Below, one piece after another: positions 4,709-25,742 of a stretch of 64,000 nt of DNA; within the stretch, counting starts at the first letter, position 1; each line of letters opens with the position of its first letter. The notes under the pieces were generated by a model. That model was not told where the DNA came from. It did no database searches and saw only the letters and a program-made list of their open reading frames with translations. The DNA is taken from the NCBI RefSeq assembly GCF_900156805.1, contig NZ_FTOQ01000003.1, forward strand, positions 124,001-188,000, in the 5' to 3' direction. A program made the translations under genes and the position numbers. This DNA comes from Roseivivax lentus (GTDB lineage Bacteria; Pseudomonadota; Alphaproteobacteria; Rhodobacterales; Rhodobacteraceae).

Positions 4709-6223
4709 ATGGACCGGCTCCTCTCCATTCCCCTCTTGCTGCTGTTCGCGGGGGCGGCGTCGATCGCGATGATGGGCCCGGCGATCCTCGCCCTTTACGT
4801 CGAGGACTTCCACGACGCCCGCAGCTTTCTGCATTCGTCTCTTCTGGGCTTTCTCGTCACCTCGCTGCTGGTCATCACGCGGACCGGGCTGCCCAACAAC
4901 CGCAACGACCTGCGCCAGCTTTTCGCGCTGCTTCTGGCCTTCATCCTGCTGCCTGCGATGCTGGCGGTGCCGTTCCACCAGGCGGTGCGCAACACGAGCT
5001 TTCTCAACGCCTATGTGGAGATGGTCTCGGCGCTGACCACGACCGGGGCGACCTTGTTCGACCCCGCGCGGCTGTCGCTGGCCGAACATCTCTGGCGGGC
5101 GCAGGTGGGCTGGATGGGGGGACTTCTGATGTGGATCGCCGCGGCGGCGATCCTCGCGCCGCTGACGCTGGGCGGATTCGAGGTTACCGCCGTGTCGGAG
5201 CCGGGCCAGGGCACCGCGCCCGGTGCCGCGCATCGCGACAAGGCCGATCCACGCCAGCGGCTGGCGCGCGCGGTGCATGCGCTGGTGCCCACGTATATCG
5301 GCCTGACGCTCGCGCTCTGGCTTCTGCTGATGGTCACCGGCGACACGCCTTTCGTGGCGATCTGCCACGCGATGTCGACCATGGCCACCTCGGGCATATC
5401 GCCCATCGGCGGGCTCGAACAGGCGCCCTCGGGCTTCTGGGGCGAAGCGGTGGTGTTCTGCTTTCTGTTCTTCGCGCTCTCGCGCCTGACCTTCTCGAAC
5501 GACACCTCCGCCGCGCGGCGTCAGGGGCTTCTGAACGATCCGGAGTTTCGGATCGGCATCTCCATCGTTGCCGCCGTGCCGCTGATCCTCTTCGCGCGGC
5601 ACTGGCTTGCCTCCTTCGACATCGGCACCGAGGAAAACGTGGTCCTAGCGCTGCGGGCCTTCTGGGGCGCGGCCTTCACCACGCTTTCCTTCCTCACCAC
5701 GACGGGCTTCGAAAGCGCCGACTGGGCGCAGGCGCAGGGCTGGTCGGGGCTGAACACGCCGGGGCTGATCCTCATGGGCCTCGCCATCATCGGTGGCGGG
5801 GTGGCGACGACCGCGGGCGGGGTGAAGCTCTTGCGGGTCTTCATCCTCTATCTCAACGGCAAGCGCGAGCTAGAGCGGCTGATCCATCCCAACTCGGTCG
5901 GGCGGTCGGGCCTTCTCAGCCGCCGCACGCGGCGCGAGGGCGCTTTCATCGCCTGGGTTTTCTTCATGATCTTCGCGCTGACCATCGCGGTGATGGTGCT
6001 GGCCTTCTCGGTCCAGGGCATCGCCTTCGAAGGCGCCTTCGTGATGACCATCGCGGGGTTGACCAATACCGGCCCGCTGGTGGCGCTGGCCACCGAGATG
6101 CCGCTGCCGCTGGCGCAATATGCGCCTTCGGTGAAGGTGACGCTGGCGGCGGCGATGATCCTCGGGCGGCTGGAAGTGCTGGCGATCGTGGTCATGCTGT
6201 CGCCGGAACTGTGGCGCGATTGA
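4709..6223 (+). CDS. trkH: Trk potassium uptake channel subunit TrkH
   Basis: 504-residue integral membrane K+-translocating subunit that works with TrkA. It has about ten hydrophobic segments and the four selectivity-filter-like turns expected of the family: [27 protein letters not shown] and TNTGPLV. The start ATG lies 3 bases after trkA. The gene ends well before hfq; the intervening 128 bases carry two hairpins. Confidence 0.95.
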
Positions 6224-6294
6224 CGGCAGCGGACCGCCGCGGCTGGGGAAATTCCCGATTTGCTCTGGAAAGTCGGAAGTCGGCAGACCATACT

Positions 6295-6328
6295 CCCCTC
6301 TGGCGAGGGGCACCGCGTTGCGCGGTGC
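6295..6328 (+). promoter_or_regulatory. Two back-to-back hairpins ahead of hfq
   Basis: CCCCTC-TGGC-GAGGGG (6295-6310) is followed at once by CACCGCG-TTG-CGCGGTG (6311-6327). They end 24 bases before the hfq start codon. They could end trkAH transcription or form a structured hfq leader. No run of T follows directly, so a simple intrinsic terminator is doubtful. Confidence 0.5.
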
Positions 6329-6351
6329 GAAGAAGAATAAAAGGCTTTTCA

Positions 6352-6594
6352 ATGGCTTCCGATAGACAGAATCTCCAGGATGCATTTCTTAACCATGTTC
6401 GGAAAACCAAGGTCCCGGTGACCGTTTTCCTCATCAACGGCGTCAAATTGCAGGGCGTCATCACCTGGTTCGACAACTTCTGTGTGCTCCTGCGGCGCGA
6501 CGGGCAGTCGCAGCTGGTCTACAAGCATGCAATCAGCACGATCATGCCGGCCCAGCCGATCAACCTTTATGATGGTGACGGCGAGGGATCTTGA
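6352..6594 (+). CDS. hfq: RNA chaperone Hfq
   Basis: 80-residue Sm-like RNA chaperone that forms a hexamer and pairs small RNAs with mRNAs. Family signature is clear: [32 protein letters not shown] (Sm1) and [13 protein letters not shown] (Sm2), with the conserved Gln of the proximal face in QNLQD. The ATG follows AAAAGG. The stop codon overlaps the TTG start of hflX, the usual hfq-hflX order. The short acidic C-terminus GDGEGS is typical of alphaproteobacterial Hfq. Confidence 0.97.
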
Positions 6595-7865
6595 ACGAAC
6601 ACGATCCGCACGTCACCCGCGCCTGGGTTCTGCACCCCGACATCAAGAGCGACCGCGACCGACGCGATGCCGAGATCGGCCTCGCCGAAGCGGTTGCACT
6701 TGCCGTGGCGCTGCCGAATCTCGAAGTCGTCGGCCAGACCATCGTGCCGCTGCCGAAACCGCATCCCGGCGAGCTTTTCGGCTCGGGCAAGATCGCCGAG
6801 CTGAAAGAGCTGTTTCACGAGCACGAGGTCGAGCTGGTGCTCGTCGACGGGCCCGTGACGCCGGTGCAGCAGCGCAATCTGGAGCGCGCCTGGAAGGTGA
6901 AGCTTCTGGACCGGACGGGCCTGATCCTCGAGATCTTCTCGGACCGCGCGGCCACCCGCGAGGGCGTGCTGCAGGTCGAGATGGCGCATCTGAGCTACCA
7001 GCGCACGCGGCTGGTGCGGGCCTGGACCCACCTCGAACGGCAGCGCGGCGGGCTGGGCTTCGTGGGTGGCCCCGGCGAGACGCAGATCGAGGCCGACCGG
7101 CGGGCCATCGACGAACAGCTCGTGCGCCTGCGCCGGCAGCTCGACAAGGTCGTGCGGACCCGCAGCCTGCACCGCGCGGCGCGCGCCAAGGTGCCTTATC
7201 CGATCGTGGCGCTGGTGGGCTATACCAACGCGGGCAAGTCGACCCTGTTCAACCGGATGACCGGGGCCGAGGTGATGGCCAAGGACATGCTTTTCGCGAC
7301 GCTCGACCCGACCATGCGCGCGGTGAAGCTGGCCTCCGGGCCCGAGGTCATCCTGTCGGATACGGTGGGCTTCATCTCGAACCTGCCGACGGAGCTTGTC
7401 GCGGCGTTCCGCGCCACGCTCGAAGAGGTCACCGCCGCCGATCTCATCGTGCATGTGCGCGACATCGCCCATCCCAATTCCGAAGAGCAGGCGAACGACG
7501 TGCGCGCCATCATCGCCTCGCTCGGCGTGCTCGAGACGACGCCCCAGATCGAGGTCTGGAACAAGCTCGACCAGCTCGATCCCGAGGCCAAGGAGGGGTT
7601 CAGCGCCCGGGCCGCCCGCGAAGACGGGATCTACGCGCTGTCGGCCTGGACCGGGGAAGGGATGGACGCGCTGCTCGAGGGTATCGCCCAGCGGCTCGAG
7701 GGCGAGACGCGGGAGGATCACCTGCGGCTTGGCTTCGACGAGGGCCGCAAGCGTGCCTGGCTCTTCGAGCGGGGCCTCGTGGAAGACGAGGTTCAGGACG
7801 AAGACGGCTACGCGCTGAACGTGCGCTGGACGGCCCGGGAGGCTGCGCAGTTCGAGAAGCTGTAA
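6591..7865 (+). CDS. hflX: GTPase HflX
   Basis: 424-residue ribosome-associated GTPase that splits stalled ribosomes. An N-terminal HflX-specific domain (about residues 1-195, including [13 protein letters not shown]) precedes the G domain: GYTNAGKS (G1), DPTMR switch region, [10 protein letters not shown] (G3) and NKLD (G4). Start taken as TTG at 6591, sharing four bases (TTGA) with the hfq stop; it gives the usual family length and implies translational coupling to hfq. The first in-frame ATG is too far inside. Confidence 0.93.
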
Positions 7866-7954
7866 GACAGGGTGACGGGCGCGCAGCCAGCGGCCCCATG
7901 CGACCCCGATCGGTGCGCGGCACCGCCCTTTTGAGTATTGCACCAGTGACCGGT

Positions 7955-7985
7955 TGCCGGATCCCGCTTGGTGCAGGGTCCGGCA
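7955..7985 (-). terminator. Hairpin closing the peptide operon
   Basis: TGCCGGA and GGGTCC-containing arms (7955-7965 with 7976-7985, one bulged base) form a strong stem directly after the last peptide gene on the minus strand. An outer pairing TGCACCA/TGGTGCA overlaps it. It lies between convergent hflX and the peptide operon and probably ends one or both. No long T run is present. Confidence 0.45.
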
Positions 7986-7989
7986 TTGG

Positions 7990-8223
7990 CTAGCGGCGCA
8001 CGAGGTCGCGACCGGGCATCTCTCCGATCAGGTTGCATTGCGGAGAGTTGCACTGACAATTGTTCGGAGTGTCGGTGATCGCGCCGTTGATCAGGTCGAT
8101 CATCGCCATCCGGTCGCCGCTTTCGACCGCCGCTGTCAGGCGCAGGTTCCAAAGCTGCGTCCGACCGGCGACCAGGGCGCGTCTTGCCTCGCTCGCCGTC
8201 TTCATCTGCTGCTGGGTCAGCAT
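7990..8223 (-). CDS. Putative RiPP precursor peptide 3
   Basis: 77 residues. Paralogue of the two peptides upstream: leader core TQLWNLRLTAAVESGD (residues 22-37) matches TQLWNLRLQAAAETGD of peptide 2, and the C-terminal part carries NNCQCNSPQC. The Cys spacing is C-x-C-x4-C, one residue longer than in its sisters, and the tail after it (NLIGEMPGRDLVRR) differs most. ATG at 8223 lies 10 bases after the stop of peptide 2, with only a weak GGGG as ribosome site, so it probably depends on translation from upstream. No known family recognised; the RiPP role is inferred from the radical SAM gene in the same operon. Confidence 0.75.
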   Translation of the reverse strand: MLTQQQMKTASEARRALVAGRTQLWNLRLTAAVESGDRMAMIDLINGAITDTPNNCQCNSPQCNLIGEMPGRDLVRR

Positions 8224-8233
8224 GCTGTCGCCC

Positions 8234-8482
8234 CTAGCGGCGGATCGCGCCGCCGGGATTGACGATGGTGCCGAGACCCTCCTGCAGCGCACCGCACTGG
8301 ACGTTGCATCCGCAATTGTTGATGTCGTCCTCCACCGAGGCGCCGATGCGCTCCATCACCGCCTTGGCGTCGCCGGTTTCGGCCGCCGCCTGGAGCCGCA
8401 GGTTCCAAAGCTGGGTCTGCGCCGTCAGCTTGGCCTGCTTGGCCTCGGTCACGGCCTTGAGCTGTTCTTTCGTGAAAGCCAT
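8234..8482 (-). CDS. Putative RiPP precursor peptide 2
   Basis: 82 residues, start ATG at 8482 behind AAGGAG at ideal spacing. Predicted helical, charged leader with TQLWNLRL (23-30) and ETGD, then a core region EDDINNCGCNVQCGALQ (51-67) and a Gly/Pro-containing tail ending in RR. The three Cys (57, 59, 63) follow C-x-C-x3-C. Eleven bases separate it from the stop of peptide 1. It has no signal peptide and no membrane segment. Best explained as a substrate of the radical SAM/SPASM enzyme encoded upstream; a small metal-binding protein is the alternative. Confidence 0.8.
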   Translation of the reverse strand: MAFTKEQLKAVTEAKQAKLTAQTQLWNLRLQAAAETGDAKAVMERIGASVEDDINNCGCNVQCGALQEGLGTIVNPGGAIRR

Positions 8483-8493
8483 TGTTCCGCTCC

Positions 8494-8739
8494 TTACCGC
8501 CGGGTGATGCCGGGATTGACGAGCCCGCCGAGATCGGGGTCCTGCAGCGCGCCGCACTGAACGTTGCAGCCGCAATTGTCGATCTTGTCCTCGACGGGGC
8601 TCTTCAGGTGATCGAGCACGGAGGAGATGTCACCGGCCTCCACCAGCGCCTCCAGCCGCGTGTTCCACAGCGTCATCTGCGCGTCGACGATCTGTTTTCG
8701 CGCCGCCATGGCTTCGGTCGCCATCTTCTTGGTATCCAT
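8494..8739 (-). CDS. Putative RiPP precursor peptide 1
   Basis: 81 residues, ATG at 8739 preceded by AAAGGA. First of three tandem paralogues behind the radical SAM gene (66 bases after its stop). Leader: MTLWNTRLEALVEAGD (22-37), the same W-N-x-R-L and E-x-GD landmarks as peptides 2 and 3. Core: EDKIDNCGCNVQCGALQ (50-66), with C-x-C-x3-C identical to peptide 2. Tail: LGGLVNPGITRR. The near-identity of the cores, with looser leaders and tails, suggests selection on the Cys region. Confidence 0.8.
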   Translation of the reverse strand: MDTKKMATEAMAARKQIVDAQMTLWNTRLEALVEAGDISSVLDHLKSPVEDKIDNCGCNVQCGALQDPDLGGLVNPGITRR

Positions 8740-8773
8740 AACACATTCCTTTCAAATCAATTTCGGTTGGGTC

Positions 8774-8790
8774 GGGCGGCTCATCCGCCC
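8774..8790 (-). promoter_or_regulatory. Hairpin between radical SAM gene and peptides
   Basis: GGGCGG-ATGAG-CCGCCC on the minus strand, in the 66-base gap after the enzyme stop codon and 35 bases before the first peptide ATG. It could stabilise a processed peptide mRNA or partly terminate, allowing different amounts of enzyme and substrate from one transcript. Confidence 0.4.
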
Positions 8791-8805
8791 CGGGATCCCC
8801 GAACG

Positions 8806-10176
8806 TCATGCCGGGGATGGCTGGCGCGCCTCCTGTAATTGGTGCGCGGCAACTGTGACCATGCGTTCGTAATCCGCAGGGGTGAACGGGCAGGGCGGCT
8901 CGCCCTGGTCCATCGCGGCCAGCGGGCAGGCCCGGCTCTGGCAGGCCGCCGAGAAGGAGCAGGTCCCGCATTTGCCCGATGGGGAATGGGGCTCGGTCCA
9001 GGCGCGCCACTTGGCGCGGTCGATCTCGAGCGTGCCGTCGGGATAAAGCCGGCCCACCTTGTTGCGGTCGTCCTCGAACGCCACGGTGCATTTGTAGATC
9101 GTCCCGTCCGAGCCCACGACCATGGACGAGGCCTTGCCCGCATAGCAGGCGGCCCCGTGGGGCTTCAGCGCATCGAGCGCCGAGGTCGCCGGGAAGCCGT
9201 GGCAGGCGGCCTGGTCGATGAGGCCAAGCCGCGCGGCGGAGGCGCTTTGTTCCTCGACCACGGCCATTTCGCGATCGTTGGGTCCGCCCCAGCGTCCGAC
9301 CGCGTGGAAATCGAGGAAGAAGCGCGGATCGTCCGAAAGGTGTGGCGCCGCCTCCTTCAGGAAATCGTCAATGGTGCGGATGGTCAGGGGATTGAAATTC
9401 ACCCGCACGGCGACGCTGAAATCGCGGCTCTGCGCGGTCATGCCGATCAGGTTCTTGAAGATCCGCCGATAGGTGGGCTGGCCGCCGCGCAACCGGCGCA
9501 CGGTGTCATGCGCCTCTTCCGAGCCGTCGATGGTGATCTGGAAATGCTGCACCCCGGCATCGAGAAGACGTCCGACGGTGGCCTCGTCAAGGAAATATCC
9601 ATTGGTGGTGATGGCAGCGCGGTAGCGAATGCCTGCATTTTCGCAAAGCGACTGGAACGCGGCGGAGAGCTCGTAGATCACGTCGCGCGCAAGGCACGGC
9701 TCGCCCCCGAACCAGCCCACGTTCAGAAGGCGGATATCGGGCATCTGGCGGGCGATGTAGGCCTTGAGGCCCGCGACGATGTCGGGGGACATCTTGCCGC
9801 GCGCGAAACTCTCATAGCAGTAGGTGCAGCGGAAATTGCAATCCTCATGCGGCAGGATGATGAGATGCGTGCCGAAGTCGCGCTCGCGTCGGAGCAGGTC
9901 CTCGGCGCGCTTTTCCTCGCGCAGCGCCTCGTCCACCACGAAACCCTGACGATACAATTCCTGCGCGAAGGCGTCGCGCGCGGTGAGCACCGGCTGGATA
10001 TCGCGGTTCTTGGCCCTGAGCGGCGCGAGCCAGGGCGCCATGCGCCGCGCGATTTCGGGCGGCACGACCATCAGCGCGCCCATGAACGAATTGTGCAGGT
10101 ATCCCCCGCCATCTGTGTGATCGGGAATGAATCGGCAATAGCGGGACGCCCGCCAAACGGGATCCGAATGGGTCAT
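8806..10176 (-). CDS. Radical SAM/SPASM peptide maturase
   Basis: 456 residues, ATG at 10176 after GGAG. The N-terminal domain (1-100) has YLHNSFMGALMVVPPEIARRM, a layout seen in peptide-modifying radical SAM enzymes. The radical SAM core carries Cys113-x3-Cys117-x2-Cys120 for the catalytic 4Fe-4S cluster and GGEP (157-160) for S-adenosylmethionine. The C-terminal SPASM domain has seven Cys (344, 363, 403, 406, 412, 417, 429), fitting C-x13-G-x4-C ... C-x2-C-x5-C-x4-C ... C and able to hold two auxiliary clusters. Such enzymes install thioether or carbon-carbon links in ribosomal peptides. The three Cys-containing peptides downstream are the likely substrates. Exact chemistry cannot be read from sequence. 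Confidence 0.92.
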   Translation of the reverse strand: MTHSDPVWRASRYCRFIPDHTDGGGYLHNSFMGALMVVPPEIARRMAPWLAPLRAKNRDIQPVLTARDAFAQELYRQGFVVDEALREEKRAEDLLRRERDFGTHLIILPHEDCNFRCTYCYESFARGKMSPDIVAGLKAYIARQMPDIRLLNVGWFGGEPCLARDVIYELSAAFQSLCENAGIRYRAAITTNGYFLDEATVGRLLDAGVQHFQITIDGSEEAHDTVRRLRGGQPTYRRIFKNLIGMTAQSRDFSVAVRVNFNPLTIRTIDDFLKEAAPHLSDDPRFFLDFHAVGRWGGPNDREMAVVEEQSASAARLGLIDQAACHGFPATSALDALKPHGAACYAGKASSMVVGSDGTIYKCTVAFEDDRNKVGRLYPDGTLEIDRAKWRAWTEPHSPSGKCGTCSFSAACQSRACPLAAMDQGEPPCPFTPADYERMVTVAAHQLQEARQPSPA

Positions 10177-10224
10177 GAAAATGCTCCGGGATGGAAAAAT
10201 GTGAACGATACGGAATCGACCAAT

Positions 10225-10259
10225 GACGCGATTATACCACGAATCGGGCGTCGTTCGTA
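10225..10259 (-). promoter_or_regulatory. Extended -10 promoter of the peptide operon
   Basis: On the minus strand TGG-TATAAT (-10 hexamer 10231-10236), a perfect consensus with the TGn extension. The -35 at 17-base spacing is poor (TACGAA), as extended -10 promoters allow. Predicted start near 10225 gives a leader of about 48 bases before the maturase ATG. It separates this operon from the penicillin-acylase gene upstream on the same strand. Confidence 0.65.
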
Positions 10260-10301
10260 TGCGGGAATACCTGACTGAAAAGGGGCCGCCGCCGGTAGGA
10301 C

Positions 10302-12770
10302 CTATTCCGCGGCGGGCACCAGTTCGGTGATCCCCACCGCCGCAGCGCGCGCCAGATCGGGGTCGAGGGACATCGGGATGTATTCCCCCCGGCGCCAGAG
10401 CTGTCCGAGGTCGTCGTAATGGCGCGACAGAAAATGCCCCGACTGACCCGTCGAGGTGATGAAGACCGACGAGTCCGGATCGGCGAAGTCGTAGACCCCG
10501 CGATAGCCCGCGCCATGCACGTTCAGGAACGGGTTCGGCCCGCGTCCGCGCGTGGCGCCGCGCTGCAGCGTGAAATCGCCGCCGCTGGTGGATTGGCGGA
10601 TATTCACGAAGGCCTGCAGCACCGGCACCTCGCCCAGCACCTCGTGGTCGTGGGTGGCCTCGTGCGCATCGCCCCAGCGCAGCGAGGCAAGCGTGGTGTT
10701 GTAGGTCTCCTCGATCCAGATCAGCGCGTCGTCGAGGGCGAGCCGGGCGAGATCCGAGCAGCTTTCCTCGACCGCCGAGCGGGCCACGTCGCACCAGGCC
10801 GCGGCGCCATCGACATCGCGGTAGACCCGTTCCAGAAAGAGCGGCTCGATCCGGGTGAACTCATCGGCGAGCGGGCCCAGATCGTCACGAATGAGCCGGT
10901 CCTGCAGGAAGCGCAGCCAGGCCGCGTAGATCAGCGGCTCCGGCAGATGCTCGCTCATCTCGCCGTTCCATTCGGCCAGCAGGTCAAGCGCATCGCGCCG
11001 GCGGCGTTCCGGCGTGCCCTCGGGGGCCGCCTCGCCGGTGAACCACAGGTCGGCACCGATCAGGGGCAGCAGCGTGCGCGCGGCCTCGGACACGGTGTCG
11101 AGCTGGAACTCGATGAAGCTGTCGCGGGTATGGACCTCGCGGCCCTGCATCAGCGTGCGCCAGCGCTGCACCCGCTGGCTGTCGCCCCATTCGTAGCTGA
11201 CATGGAGCGGGAAGGGCCGGTCGAGCACCTTGTTGTTGGTGTTGCCGACGATCCCGCCCAGCGGATCGGCGAAGCGCGGATTGGCGCTGTAGGGCAGGCT
11301 GCCCTGCCAGCGATTTGCCGCGATCCAGCCGGGCGCGGGCATTCGGCCCTGGCTTTGATGGGCATCGTCGCGGGCGGGCATGGCGCCGATGAGCTGCATC
11401 GCGACCTCGGTGCCGTCGGTCAGCGTCAGCATCTGCGAGGGCGCGACATAGGCCTCGCTTTGGGCGATCGCGTCGTCGATGGTCTCGGCGTACATCAGGC
11501 CCACCGCCGCGGTCAGCGAGGTGTCGGCGGGCGACAGCGCGGTCCAGGACAACGCCATCACGTGTCCGGGCGGCGTGATCGCGCCCAGGTCGAACTGCGT
11601 GCCGGGCAGGACCGGGCCGTTCTCGGTCCAGCGCAGGGTGACGGTGACGGGGGTGGCATCCTTGATGTTGATGATCGAGCGCCGGGTCTCGAAGCGCCGC
11701 CAGCCCTCGGGGCCCTGGTACTGGTCGGGATTGTCCGGGTTGAGCTTTTCGAGAAACAGGTCTTGATCGTCGAGATAGGACGAGGTCAGCCCCCATCCCA
11801 GCGCCTCCGACCGGCCCACCATGATCGCCGGAATGCCCGGAATCGTGCCGCCGATCACCCCGCCCGACGAGAGCTGCATGCGGGCGAGGTACCAGATCGC
11901 GGGCGCGGTAAAGCCCAGATGCGGATCGTTGGCCAGAAGCGCGCCCCCCGAGGCCGAGCGCGTGGGATCGGCCGCCCAGGCGTTCGACGCACCGGCAAGG
12001 CCATGCTCCGGCACCGGCCAGAACCCGCCCTTGGGGGCGGCGGCGATGCGGGTCTGGCCGGTGGCTCCGGGCGCGAGGCTGGAATATTCCGGCAGCACGG
12101 CCGTGCCGGTGCCGGGCACGTCGGGCAGGATGTCGGCCAGCCGATCGGCATCGTCGAGCGCGAGAGAGGTTCGCGCGCGCAGCACCTCGTTCGACAGGTG
12201 GCCCGAGAGCTGCAGTGCCATCAGTTTGACGATGGCCAGCGAATCCGCCGGTTGCCAGGGCGCGAGCTCCGCCCCGAAGAGGAAGAACTCGGGCGCGCCG
12301 CGGCCGAGGCTTTCGCGGTTGATCTCGTCGATGCGCGCGTTCACGCCATCCGCATAGGCCCGAAGCGCGGCCTTCGTGCGGTCGTCCTGCGCCGCGACGC
12401 TCCGCCGGGCCAGCGTGTAGAGATCGAGCCTGCGCAACAGGTTGTCGGTCTCGACCGTGCGCGTGCCGAAGACCTCGGAGAGGCGGCCCTGAACGGTGCG
12501 GCGCATCAGCGTCATCTGCCACAGCCGGTCCTGCGCATGCACGTAACCGAGCCCGAAAAAGGCGTCCCGGTCGGTCGCGGCCATGATATGCGGCACGTTG
12601 GAGTTGTCGCGCACGATCTCCAGGGCCTGGTCGAGCCCCGTCACCGCCGCCCGCACGTCGTAATCCGGTAGCGACCGCGCGCCCAGGTAATAGACCAGCA
12701 TGACGGCCAGCGCGCCCAGGATCAGCGCCACGCCCACAAGGCGCACAAGCCAGCGAAAGATGATCCGCAT
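10302..12770 (-). CDS. Penicillin-acylase family Ntn hydrolase
   Basis: 822 residues. An N-terminal membrane segment (about 13-32) anchors or exports it, followed by an alpha-subunit region. The autocleavage site is GLAGA-SNAWA: Ser262 would become the N-terminal nucleophile of the beta chain after self-processing. The beta chain has the expected GGALLANDPHLGF and GLTSSYLDDQDLF. These enzymes hydrolyse amides such as beta-lactam side chains or acyl-homoserine lactones; the natural substrate here is unknown. The start at 12770 lies behind GAGAGAGG; a further ATG 48 bases upstream lacks a ribosome site. The gene is transcribed divergently from the dehydrogenase at 12901. Confidence 0.9.
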   Translation of the reverse strand: MRIIFRWLVRLVGVALILGALAVMLVYYLGARSLPDYDVRAAVTGLDQALEIVRDNSNVPHIMAATDRDAFFGLGYVHAQDRLWQMTLMRRTVQGRLSEVFGTRTVETDNLLRRLDLYTLARRSVAAQDDRTKAALRAYADGVNARIDEINRESLGRGAPEFFLFGAELAPWQPADSLAIVKLMALQLSGHLSNEVLRARTSLALDDADRLADILPDVPGTGTAVLPEYSSLAPGATGQTRIAAAPKGGFWPVPEHGLAGASNAWAADPTRSASGGALLANDPHLGFTAPAIWYLARMQLSSGGVIGGTIPGIPAIMVGRSEALGWGLTSSYLDDQDLFLEKLNPDNPDQYQGPEGWRRFETRRSIINIKDATPVTVTLRWTENGPVLPGTQFDLGAITPPGHVMALSWTALSPADTSLTAAVGLMYAETIDDAIAQSEAYVAPSQMLTLTDGTEVAMQLIGAMPARDDAHQSQGRMPAPGWIAANRWQGSLPYSANPRFADPLGGIVGNTNNKVLDRPFPLHVSYEWGDSQRVQRWRTLMQGREVHTRDSFIEFQLDTVSEAARTLLPLIGADLWFTGEAAPEGTPERRRRDALDLLAEWNGEMSEHLPEPLIYAAWLRFLQDRLIRDDLGPLADEFTRIEPLFLERVYRDVDGAAAWCDVARSAVEESCSDLARLALDDALIWIEETYNTTLASLRWGDAHEATHDHEVLGEVPVLQAFVNIRQSTSGGDFTLQRGATRGRGPNPFLNVHGAGYRGVYDFADPDSSVFITSTGQSGHFLSRHYDDLGQLWRRGEYIPMSLDPDLARAAAVGITELVPAAE

Positions 12771-23236: not shown

Positions 23237-24286
23237 TCAGTTCTGCAGCGACCAGAGATAGGCCAGAAGGTCCTTGCGGTCGCCCTCGTTCTTGACGCCG
23301 GGATAGCTCATCGAGGTGCCGCTTGCATATTCGCGCGGGTTGGTCAGCCAGGCGTCGAGCTCCTCGGGGGTCCATTGCTGACCCTGCAGCTCCTGCAGCG
23401 CGCTGCTGTAGCGGAAGCCGTTGATGGAGGCGATATCGCGGCCGACGATGTCCACGAGATGCGGGCCGACGCGGTTCTGTTCCTGATCGACCACGTGGCA
23501 GGCCCGGCACTGGTTCCAGATGCGGGTGCCGGCCTCGGCATCGCCGTCGAGATAGGCCATCTGCGCCTCGGGCCAGGCCGCATCGCCATCCGCCGACGCG
23601 GTTTCCTCGGCGGCGGCCTCTTCGGCGGGAGCTTCCGCGGTCTCGGTTGTCTCTTCCGTGGCCTCGGTTTCGGTCGCCTCGGCACTTTCCTCGGCCGGGG
23701 CGGCCTCTTCGGCAGGGGCTTCCGCGGTCTCGGTCGTCTCTTCGGTGGCCTCGGTCTCGGATGCCTCGGCGGTTTCCTCGGCAGGCGCGGCCTCTTCAGC
23801 GGGGCCTTCCGCGGTTTCGGTCGTCTCTTCGGTTGCCTCCGTCTCTGTCGCCTCGGCACTTTCCTCGGCCGGGGCGGCCTCTTCGGCGGGGGCTTCCGCG
23901 GTTTCGGTTGTCTCTTCGGTCGCCTCGGTTTCGGTCGCCTCGGCGGTTTCCTCTGCCGGGGCTGCCTCCTCGGCGGGGGCTTCCGCGGTCTCGGTCGTCT
24001 CCTCGGTGGCCTCGGTTTCGGACGCCTCGGCGGTTTCCTCTGCCGGGGCTGCCTCTTCCGCAGGCGCTTCCGCAGTCTCGGTCATCTCCTCAGCGGGCGC
24101 TTCCTCGGCGGGGGCCTCCGCGGTCTCGGTCTCTTCCTCCGGCGCGCTCATTTCCGTGGGCGCCTGGGCGGTCTGCGGGTCGGGCACGACCAGGGCGTGC
24201 CAGGCCGACAGCAGGACGAGGCCGCCGCCGAAGACGACGAGGCCGCCCAGGATGGCTTGATCGAAAGGATCCTTGTTCTTGAACAT
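23237..24286 (-). CDS. Membrane-tethered cytochrome c with repeated acidic linker
   Basis: 349 residues. A signal-anchor segment (about 11-32, AILGGLVVFGGGLVLLSAW) holds it in the membrane. Residues 53-235 form an Ala/Glu/Thr/Pro linker made of five full 29-residue repeats plus partial ones. Residues 236-349 are a class I cytochrome c domain with haem site CRACH (260-264), HLVDIVGRD, and Met ligand in GTSMSYPG (326). The build matches cytochrome c-y/CycM of Rhodobacter and Paracoccus, which carries electrons from the bc1 complex to cytochrome oxidase, but the linker is longer and repetitive. ATG at 24286 after AGGAGAT. Confidence 0.93.
   Translation of the reverse strand: MFKNKDPFDQAILGGLVVFGGGLVLLSAWHALVVPDPQTAQAPTEMSAPEEETETAEAPAEEAPAEEMTETAEAPAEEAAPAEETAEASETEATEETTETAEAPAEEAAPAEETAEATETEATEETTETAEAPAEEAAPAEESAEATETEATEETTETAEGPAEEAAPAEETAEASETEATEETTETAEAPAEEAAPAEESAEATETEATEETTETAEAPAEEAAAEETASADGDAAWPEAQMAYLDGDAEAGTRIWNQCRACHVVDQEQNRVGPHLVDIVGRDIASINGFRYSSALQELQGQQWTPEELDAWLTNPREYASGTSMSYPGVKNEGDRKDLLAYLWSLQN
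23648..24082 (-). repeat. Five 87-bp repeats coding the cytochrome linker
   Basis: Residues 69-213 of the cytochrome consist of five in-frame 29-residue units starting TETAEAPAEEAAPAEE and ending ETEATEET, alternating between S/T variants (EASETEATEE and EATETEATEE). Partial units flank the array to about 24130 and 23600. Copies differ mostly at third codon positions, so the array is not brand new, but its length could still change by recombination. Confidence 0.9.
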
Positions 24287-24449
24287 GGGGCAATCTCCTA
24301 AATGCGCTGGAATATGACATGGAGCGATGCGCGGCGGGGGAAAGGCAAAACTGCGTCCTTTTGACCCTCCGCGCGGCACCGAACGGCAAAGCCCCGCCGA
24401 ACGGGCCTGATGGCTGCGGCGGCACGATCGACGCGCCGCCGCGCCTGGG

Positions 24450-25742
24450 TCAGTGGCCGGCCTTGGCCAGCGCCTGGTCGAGATCGGCAATCAGGTCCTC
24501 GGCATCCTCGATCCCGATGGAGATCCGCACGACATTCGGCGCCGCACCCGCCGCGACCTGCTGCTCTTCGGTCAGCTGGCGGTGGGTGGTGGAGGCCGAA
24601 TGGATCACGAGGCTGCGGGTATCGCCGAGATTGGCGACGTGGCTGAAAAGCTCGAGGCTGTCCACGAAGGTCTTGCAGGCCTCGTAGCCGCCCTTCAGCG
24701 TCACCGTGAAGAGCCCGCCTGCGCCCTTGGGGCAGATCCGCGGCACCCGGTCGAAATAGGGCGAGGAGGGCAGGCCGGCATAGGTCACGGCCTCGACGGC
24801 GTCGTGGTTTTCAAGCCATCCCGCCACGGTCTCGGCGTTCTCCACGTGCTTTTTCATGCGCAGGGACAATGTTTCGATCCCCATCAGCGTATAATGCGCC
24901 GCCTGCGGATTGAGCGTCATGCCGAGATCGCGCAGACCGACGGCGATGCCGTGGAAGGTGAAGGCGAGATGCCCGAAGGTCTCGTGGAACTTGAGGCCGT
25001 GATAGGCGGGCTCGGGTTCGCTGAGCGAGGGGAACTTGCCCGAGGCGGACCAGTCGAACTTGCCGGAATCGATCACCACCCCGCCGGTCACGGTGCCGTT
25101 GCCCGTGAGGAACTTGGTCATGGAATGCACGACCAGCGTCGCCCCATGCTCGATGGGCCGGCAGAGATACGGCGTGGCCGAGGTGTTGTCGACGATGAGC
25201 GGCAGGCCCGCCGCATCCGCGACCTTGGCCGCCGCGTCGAGATCGGTGATGTAGCCGCCCGGATTCGCGATCGACTCGCAGAAGATTGCGCGGGTGTCGT
25301 CGTCGATGGCCGCCGCGACCGCGTCCATGTCGTCGAAATCGACGAATTTCGCGGACCAGCCGAAGCGCTTGATGGTCTGGCTGAACTGGGTGACCGAGCC
25401 GCCGTAGAGACGCGTCGAGACGACGATGTTGCGCCCGGGCCCCATCAGCGGGAAGAGCGCCATGATCTGCGCTGCGTGGCCCGAGGAGCAGCAGACCGCC
25501 CCCACGCCGCCTTCGAGCATCGCCATCTTTTCCTGCAGAACCGCTACGGTGGGGTTCGTGAGGCGGGAATAGATGAAGCCCACCTCCTGCAGGTTGAAGA
25601 GCGCCGCCGCGTGATCGGCGTCGCGGAAGACATAGGCGGTGGTCTGGTAGATCGGCGTCTGGCGCGCGCCGGTGGCCGGGTCGGGCCGGGCGCCCGCGTG
25701 GATCAGCAGCGTGTCGAAGCCGTATTGCGGTTGGTCGGTCAT
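24450..25742 (-). CDS. metY: O-acetylhomoserine sulfhydrylase (MetY-type)
   Basis: 430-residue PLP enzyme of the Cys/Met-metabolism family. It makes homocysteine from O-acetylhomoserine and sulfide, or methionine with methanethiol. N-terminal [34 protein letters not shown] is characteristic of MetY; PLP Lys210 lies in [28 protein letters not shown] and YSRLTNPT also match. Start at MTDQPQYGF gives the usual length; an in-frame ATG 87 bases upstream adds a basic, unrelated tail. Divergent from the small monooxygenase-like gene. Confidence 0.93.

Follow-up and report, generated by a model that had tools for sequence, protein, structure and literature searches.

A probable NxxC-type radical SAM/SPASM peptide cassette with three tandem precursors in Roseivivax lentus

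We analyzed a 64,000-nucleotide stretch of contig NZ_FTOQ01000003.1 of Roseivivax lentus (positions 124,001 to 188,000; hereafter the window), which carries a compact cassette of one gene for a radical SAM/SPASM peptide maturase and three genes for short cysteine-containing peptides, p1, p2 and p3. All four are on the minus strand in the order enzyme, p1, p2, p3, separated by 66, 11 and 10 nt (Table 1). From sequence comparison, the cassette probably encodes a ribosomally synthesized and post-translationally modified peptide (RiPP) of the NxxC, beta-thioether (ranthipeptide) type. A first-pass annotation made by a model had proposed a RiPP-type cassette that most likely cross-links its peptides, and the present analysis supports this proposal.

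Table 1. Features of the cassette and its upstream region (window coordinates).
Feature	Position	Strand	Remarks
Radical SAM/SPASM peptide maturase, 456 aa	8806..10176	-	ATG at 10176, stop at 8806
N-terminal domain, about residues 1-85, probable RRE-like leader-binding	9922..10176	-	structure model
CxxxCxxC radical SAM motif, C113/C117/C120	9817..9840	-
Seven-Cys SPASM region, C344, C363, C403, C406, C412, C417, C429	8890..9147	-	Pfam SPASM below cut-off
Precursor peptide 1 (p1), 81 aa	8494..8739	-	paralogy and G005 comparison
Leader motif L-W-N-x-R-L of p1	8653..8670	-	in predicted helix
p1 core N55-C56-G57-C58-N59-V60-Q61-C62 (NxxC, NxxC)	8554..8577	-
Precursor peptide 2 (p2), 82 aa	8234..8482	-	paralogy and G005 comparison
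p2 core N56-C-G-C59-N60-V-Q-C63 (NxxC, NxxC)	8294..8317	-
Precursor peptide 3 (p3), 77 aa	7990..8223	-	paralogy and G005 comparison
p3 core N55-C56-Q57-C58-N59-S-P-Q-C63 (NxxC, NxxxC)	8035..8061	-
Extended -10-like TGGTATAAT	10231..10239	-	upstream of enzyme; TGGTATAGT in the same place in G005

The enzyme matched the Pfam Radical_SAM model with an expectation value (E) of 2.2e-15 and contained both cysteine motifs noted in the first-pass annotation; the Pfam SPASM model scored 14.6 bits against a cut-off of 21.5. The nearest NCBIfam models included PapB, Clo7bot, geopeptide, CefB and TIGR04463, and all were below their cut-offs. The scores were 95.4 bits for the PapB model NF047865 (cut-off 340), 162.6 bits for the TIGR04463 RiPP maturase (cut-off 525) and 57.9 bits for the SCIFF maturase model TIGR03974 (cut-off 425). 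The structure model of the enzyme had a predicted local distance difference test score (pLDDT) of 89.3 and a predicted template modelling (pTM) score of 0.88. The best solved fold in Foldseek was the SCIFF maturase CteB (5why/5wgg; TM 0.65), a thioether-forming enzyme, which also came first in a sequence-profile search of the PDB; anSME, TigE and ChlB were also among the best fold matches. The model of residues 1-85 begins with four strands and two helices and continues with strand, helix and strand. This region is probably a fused leader-binding domain resembling a RiPP recognition element (RRE), a call based on the model of the whole enzyme. The domain is missing from relatives with another leader, such as the maturase at locus L077.

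The three peptides were paralogous in a small tblastn search (p1-p2, 53% identity, E 1.8e-21; p1-p3, 38%, E 2.5e-10), and they follow the enzyme directly, as first described. NCBIfam and Pfam named none of them, the few listed matches (E up to 10) being at chance level. The leader and core motifs were present as originally noted, and N, R and L of the leader were invariant in all eight aligned peptides. A peptide model showed helices at residues 3-35 and 38-45 and a disordered core with pLDDT below 50 from residue 51 (mean 66.3). The core had been described as C-x-C-x(3,4)-C. In all three peptides, judged from the sequences, it reads better as N-x-x-C with N-x(2,3)-C immediately after it.

Enzyme and peptides occurred together in two of the nine genomes of the genus, and neither was found in the other seven. 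In the second genome, G005 (one of the eight other genus genomes), an enzyme with 90% identity and the same three peptides lie between hflX and a penicillin-amidase-family acylase gene, as in the window. A peptide profile detected all three peptides in these two genomes and no homologue in the seven that lack the enzyme. Congener G004 has an empty site, with ~30 bp separating the matched ends of its hflX and acylase genes compared with ~2.4 kb in the window; the distance in G006 is ~515 bp, and in the other five congeners the acylase was not found within 1.5 kb beyond hflX. Nonsynonymous (dN) and synonymous (dS) divergence between the window and G005 was 0.056 and 0.541 for the enzyme (dN/dS ~0.10), 0.028 and 0.429 for p1 (~0.06), 0.067 and 0.284 for p2 (~0.24), and 0.273 and 0.757 for p3 (~0.36). 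The cores of p1 and p2 were identical in the two genomes. The p3 peptide was 62% identical overall to its G005 copy; no change was seen from NNCQCN through the third Cys and the next four residues.

The distribution of the cassette is patchy. A maturase at E 1e-40 or better was present in 12 of 394 genomes of the family sample, the window genome included. Across two trees, L026 fell inside the wider group of the window enzyme, L027 just outside it and eight others further off, and L030 was placed in neither tree. In the class sample, only the window genome itself reached E 1e-65 (1 of 385). The phylum samples of L001 and L002 gave 2 of 398 and 2 of 301 genomes at E 1e-90, starting genomes counted. 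L001, from a Clostridiaceae metagenome-assembled genome (MAG), encodes an enzyme with 39% identity and, directly downstream, a peptide with 46% identity over 72 aa (E 4e-22); L003, from a Syntrophomonadaceae MAG, has an enzyme with 38% identity and likewise a homologous peptide directly downstream. L002 (Chloroflexi MAG, 5986-7332) encodes a close relative with 43% identity. A search for peptide homologues in 218 family genomes, the window genome included, gave as the only further match a partial one of 18 bits (E 0.0067) in a 479-aa open reading frame (ORF), outside the core. The first-pass annotation would have been refuted by peptide homologues widespread without a radical SAM gene, and neither this search nor that of the genus showed any such spread. 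Viral contigs contained 36 loci with relatives of the enzyme, and neither relatives of p1 nor the exact DNA pattern of the core were found in them; tblastn of p1 in plasmids and of p2 in phages gave no match.

We placed the enzyme in a midpoint-rooted tree of 49 maturases. A split with 95/88 support put the window clade and the Streptococcaceae enzymes together in a group of 36 (the superclade). This group consists of the window clade (100/99; 86/89 in an earlier tree of 36 sequences), the Streptococcaceae enzymes (100/99), a clade of RRE-less and Deinococcus enzymes (97/87) and the pair L089/L090, with their mutual order unresolved. The family of the Lactococcus locus L004 was sampled with 196 genomes, and 37 of them encode a maturase at E 1e-20 or better. 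One Streptococcaceae locus, L125, combines an Rgg gene (TIGR01716, 138.9 bits) with a maturase that shares 32% identity with the window enzyme across 319 aa. Its 30-aa peptide contains N20xxC23 and N24xxC27, and another of its ORFs resembles the ABC transporter identified by Pfam next to the L119 maturase. By the tree and this identity, the window enzyme is related to maturases beside NxxC precursors, with Streptococcaceae loci such as L125 representing the NxxcA/NxxcB type.

To see how far the motif accompanies these enzymes, we counted residues around the cysteines of neighbouring small ORFs. ORFs were picked mechanically (same strand, 15-135 aa, at least two Cys, within 250 nt of the enzyme), and many are spurious. 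One start was used per ORF, and ORFs whose last 30 residues were at least 60% similar to those of an ORF already included were removed before counting. The count by clade used a range of 900 nt instead of 250 nt for the window clade, and the count split by bit score skipped duplicate loci. Beside the 45 enzymes with at least 200 bits in a five-sequence profile, Asn preceded Cys by three residues (N(-3)) at 43 of 220 cysteines, compared with 2-18 at the other 15 offsets; shuffles averaged 19.4 and reached 43 in 0 of 2000. This group includes L027, L028, L029 and L051, which lie outside the superclade, and L030, which is not in the tree. For the 49 enzymes below 200 bits the count was 10 of 203, which 245 of 2000 shuffles reached. 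N(-3) was found at 13 of 98 cysteines in the window clade (reached in 1 of 2000 shuffles), 25 of 110 in the RRE-less and Deinococcus clade (0), 11 of 54 in the Streptococcaceae clade (2), 1 of 10 in the L089/L090 pair (933) and 4 of 136 in the outgroups (1113). When the window clade was excluded, N(-3) ranked first among 320 residue/offset pairs beside the remaining 32 superclade maturases (37 of 166, expected 8.9), with a z of 9.7 versus 4.3 for the runner-up N(+2), z here ignoring relatedness; among the outgroups it was outside the top ten.

At the level of loci, at least one NxxC small ORF was present in 4 of 5 loci of the window clade, 10 of 13 of the RRE-less and Deinococcus clade (that of one Deinococcus locus looks spurious), 1 of 2 of the L089/L090 pair and 3 of 24 outgroup loci. 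The motif stands beside relatives with other leaders on a Sinorhizobium meliloti plasmid (L077; NILC, NVPC), on Streptomyces plasmids (NMHC, NGNC, NINC) and on an Acetobacter plasmid (NGNC), and in L026, from the same family as the window genome (NGAC). One peptide of L038, a contig from the viral collection, has five NxxC.

The primary paper on NxxcA and NxxcB is, according to the reviews that cite it, reportedly that of Caruso (2019). In later literature, NxxcB joins Cys23 of NxxcA to the β-carbon of Asn20 in Streptococcus orisratti (PMC8326336), the Asn20-Cys23 thioether being given in PMC13361665 as well, and NxxcB is listed as an S-Cβ former (PMC9012708). NxxC is described as one of 16 Rgg-linked subfamilies, and its reaction as the first such one documented for an enzyme of this type (PMC13361665). 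The numbering and gene order of L125 suggest that it is the characterized NxxcA/NxxcB system or a near twin. The first-pass annotation held that the core fits no known class. Read as N-x(2,3)-C, however, the core matches the NxxC motif of these descriptions (PMC8326336, PMC13361665), and the maturase groups with enzymes beside NxxC peptides; this claim is not supported. Compared with the NxxC systems in those passages, the window cassette differs in its leader, its fused N-terminal domain and its host group. None of the literature passages on NxxC reports the window system, most subscription papers and supplements being outside their scope. One survey (PMC9062424) covers, in the text considered, other putative pathways and mentions no NxxC cluster there. 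A literature search on FlmE/OhkG, on TIGR04463, geopeptide and Clo7bot, and on SPASM with Rhodobacter found no paper.

The cassette is best read as a non-streptococcal branch of NxxC systems with its own leader and three substrates, and not as a new class. This reading is based on the observed genes, their co-occurrence and conservation, the NxxC pattern with its enrichment, and the phylogenetic grouping. As far as the sequences indicate, the core motif and the maturase lineage are shared with the streptococcal system, and the leader, the size and number of precursors and the flanks differ. Because the bond is only predicted and no Rgg gene was found in the flanks, we call the cassette NxxC-like in mechanism and do not file it in the streptococcal subfamily. 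In the proposed mechanism, the N-terminal domain would bind the helical WNxRL leader, and the radical SAM cluster would generate a 5'-deoxyadenosyl radical, which would abstract a hydrogen from the side chain of an asparagine. The Cys three (or four) residues downstream would then bond through its thiol to that Asn carbon, assisted by the SPASM auxiliary clusters. Up to two such links, N55-C58 and N59-C62(63), could form in the tandem N-x-x-C-N-x(2,3)-C core, and the first core cysteine would stay free. Later processing, export and biological role of the product can only be inferred. We put forward tentatively, as possible but on balance doubtful, a more specific proposal: one enzyme would install two consecutive, side-by-side Asn-Cys beta-thioether rings in three precursors, yielding bicyclic peptides with adjacent rings and a single free cysteine, within an unrecognized cross-phylum NxxC family that swapped its leader and leader-binding domain and kept its core.

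Several observations weigh against an NxxC assignment. The first core Cys is outside the NxxC motif, and the second link of p3 would require N-x3-C; NxxcA is reported with one link only (PMC8326336). Only 10 of 22 Streptococcaceae loci have an NxxC small ORF, the signal there is mixed (N(-2) 10 versus N(-3) 11), and the identity of L125 with the characterized system rests on numbering and gene order. L002 has no recognizable precursor peptide nearby or in a search of the whole genome bin, and two Deinococcus loci lack a convincing NxxC peptide. In addition, all six window and G005 peptides have an acidic residue five positions after the last Cys (C-x4-(D/E)). Because of this residue and the Deinococcus loci, we rated the NxxC reading and the adjacent rings lower, and another kind of thioether higher. 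Such a thioether could be a PapB-like Cys-Asp/Glu link to that acidic residue, or a sactionine bond to an alpha-carbon, with NxxC as mere context. PapB accepts Cys-Xn-Asp with n of 0-6 (PMC9413430), and the NCBIfam neighbours listed above, all below cut-off, would fit such an enzyme. However, the L001 peptide lacks the acidic residue. Beside superclade maturases other than the window clade, Asp/Glu occur at expectation (+4, 11 of 142, expected 10.6; +5, 12 of 134, expected 10.0), in contrast to the excess of N(-3) given above. We regard this alternative as unlikely, although it is the most serious one.

The enzyme might instead modify the peptides without a cysteine cross-link, by C-C cyclophane formation, epimerization or Asn hydroxylation, so that the cysteines would remain available for disulfide formation or metal binding. 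Metals can be bound by C-x-C pairs, and the chemistry of SPASM enzymes is varied. This is quite improbable given that the nearest solved maturase by both sequence and fold is the thioether-forming CteB, and that the Asn and Cys of the p3 core are unchanged while the flanks drift. Least probable of all, and hardly to be expected, is that the small proteins are partners of the enzyme, or unrelated to it, and not RiPP precursors. The lack of a protease or exporter beside the cassette and of a peptide with L002 would fit such an arrangement; the shared presence of enzyme and peptides in the same two genus genomes, the pair conserved in two Bacillota MAGs, and the helical leader with disordered core in the peptide model speak against it.

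Four groups of known systems come closest to the cassette. The streptococcal NxxC radical SAM RiPPs share a related full-length radical SAM/SPASM maturase and an N-x-x-C core, and the tandem NYGC-NSPC of L125 resembles NCGC-NVQC of the window. Their precursors, however, are of ~30 aa with another leader, whereas the window has three of 77-82 aa with WNxRL. An Rgg gene is present in L125 and L126 and an ABC transporter in L119; no regulator of this kind and no exporter were found in the flanks of the window cassette. PapB-type ranthipeptides share the radical SAM/SPASM enzyme and leader-guided thioethers, and a conserved leader Asn is proposed for RRE contact in PapB (PMC9413430). Their natural motif is Cys-X3-Asp/Glu, repeated six times, whereas the acidic residues of the window peptides are 5 (in p1 also 7) and not 4 positions after the last Cys. 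SCIFF peptides have six Cys in 45 residues and a Cys-Thr link (PMC8326336), compared with three Cys per core here. The RRE-less relatives, such as L077 on the Sinorhizobium plasmid, have a related maturase and the core CGCNVPC with two NxxC, but differ in the missing N-terminal domain and a VDxxGRVVIxxPE-like leader; the L077 enzyme is below every NCBIfam cut-off shown.

The cassette is flanked by hflX on one side and the acylase gene on the other. Pfam named TrkA, TrkH, Hfq and HflX among the flanking ORFs taken as genes on the low side, and a penicillin amidase, a 3-hydroxyisobutyrate-dehydrogenase-type protein and a small helix-turn-helix protein on the high side. Two small high-side ORFs had no match. 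No exporter, protease or Rgg gene was named by Pfam among these genes, in agreement with the first-pass annotation as to exporter and protease. The acylase was considered as a cassette member or maturation protease and was excluded because it also adjoins hflX in two congeners without the cassette. An Rfam scan of 7000-11500 gave no match. The extended -10 promoter proposed upstream of the enzyme is present as a sequence and has a counterpart in G005, but a consensus promoter scan found no complete -35/-10 pair there; its promoter function is therefore unproved. Elsewhere in the window (23237-24490, minus strand), an ORF contains a long repeat of the EAPAEEAAPAEETAEA type and, after it, a CxxCH region resembling a c-type cytochrome.

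Other gene arrangements were observed around related maturases. L089 (1324-2925, 2819-3755) and L090 (1459-2826, 2931-3937), from two genomes (G738 and G1005, one per phylum sample), each have a related maturase followed by a short Cys-ending peptide (SNCHNC, NPGCNFATGC) and a PF02441 flavoprotein gene; possibly this is a RiPP that combines a thioether with C-terminal Cys decarboxylation. RRE-less maturases at L077 (1544-2713), L075, L076, L078 and L026 have nearby peptides with the VDxxGRVVIxxPE-like leader. ABC transporter and TolC genes are upstream at L078, and the L026 peptide starts with a Tat-like RR signal. Two Deinococcus plasmid loci, L073 (3036-5487) and L074 (3048-5489), each bring together a related maturase, an ORF annotated as alkane 1-monooxygenase or LLM-class oxidoreductase, and a small ORF whose N-terminus is signal-like and which shows no convincing NxxC; lantibiotic dehydratase genes are present in L074 as well. 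L007 (3088-4092; G013, same family as the window genome) has, next to a more distant maturase, an ORF consisting largely of (N/D)EG(D/N) repeats.

In the literature passages considered here, streptococci are the described source of Asn-Cys β-thioethers formed by enzymes of this type. If the NxxC-like reading is true, this chemistry extends to the window genome, which is alphaproteobacterial by gene content, in keeping with the Rhodobacterales of the first-pass annotation. The same motif would then single out candidates in other Bacillota and in Streptomyces, Sinorhizobium and Acetobacter. With its three natural substrates, so small a cassette would be well suited to studying how a single maturase deals with adjacent rings. 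The clades keep the same core in two leader and domain architectures, and comparing them would allow leader recognition to be tested directly.

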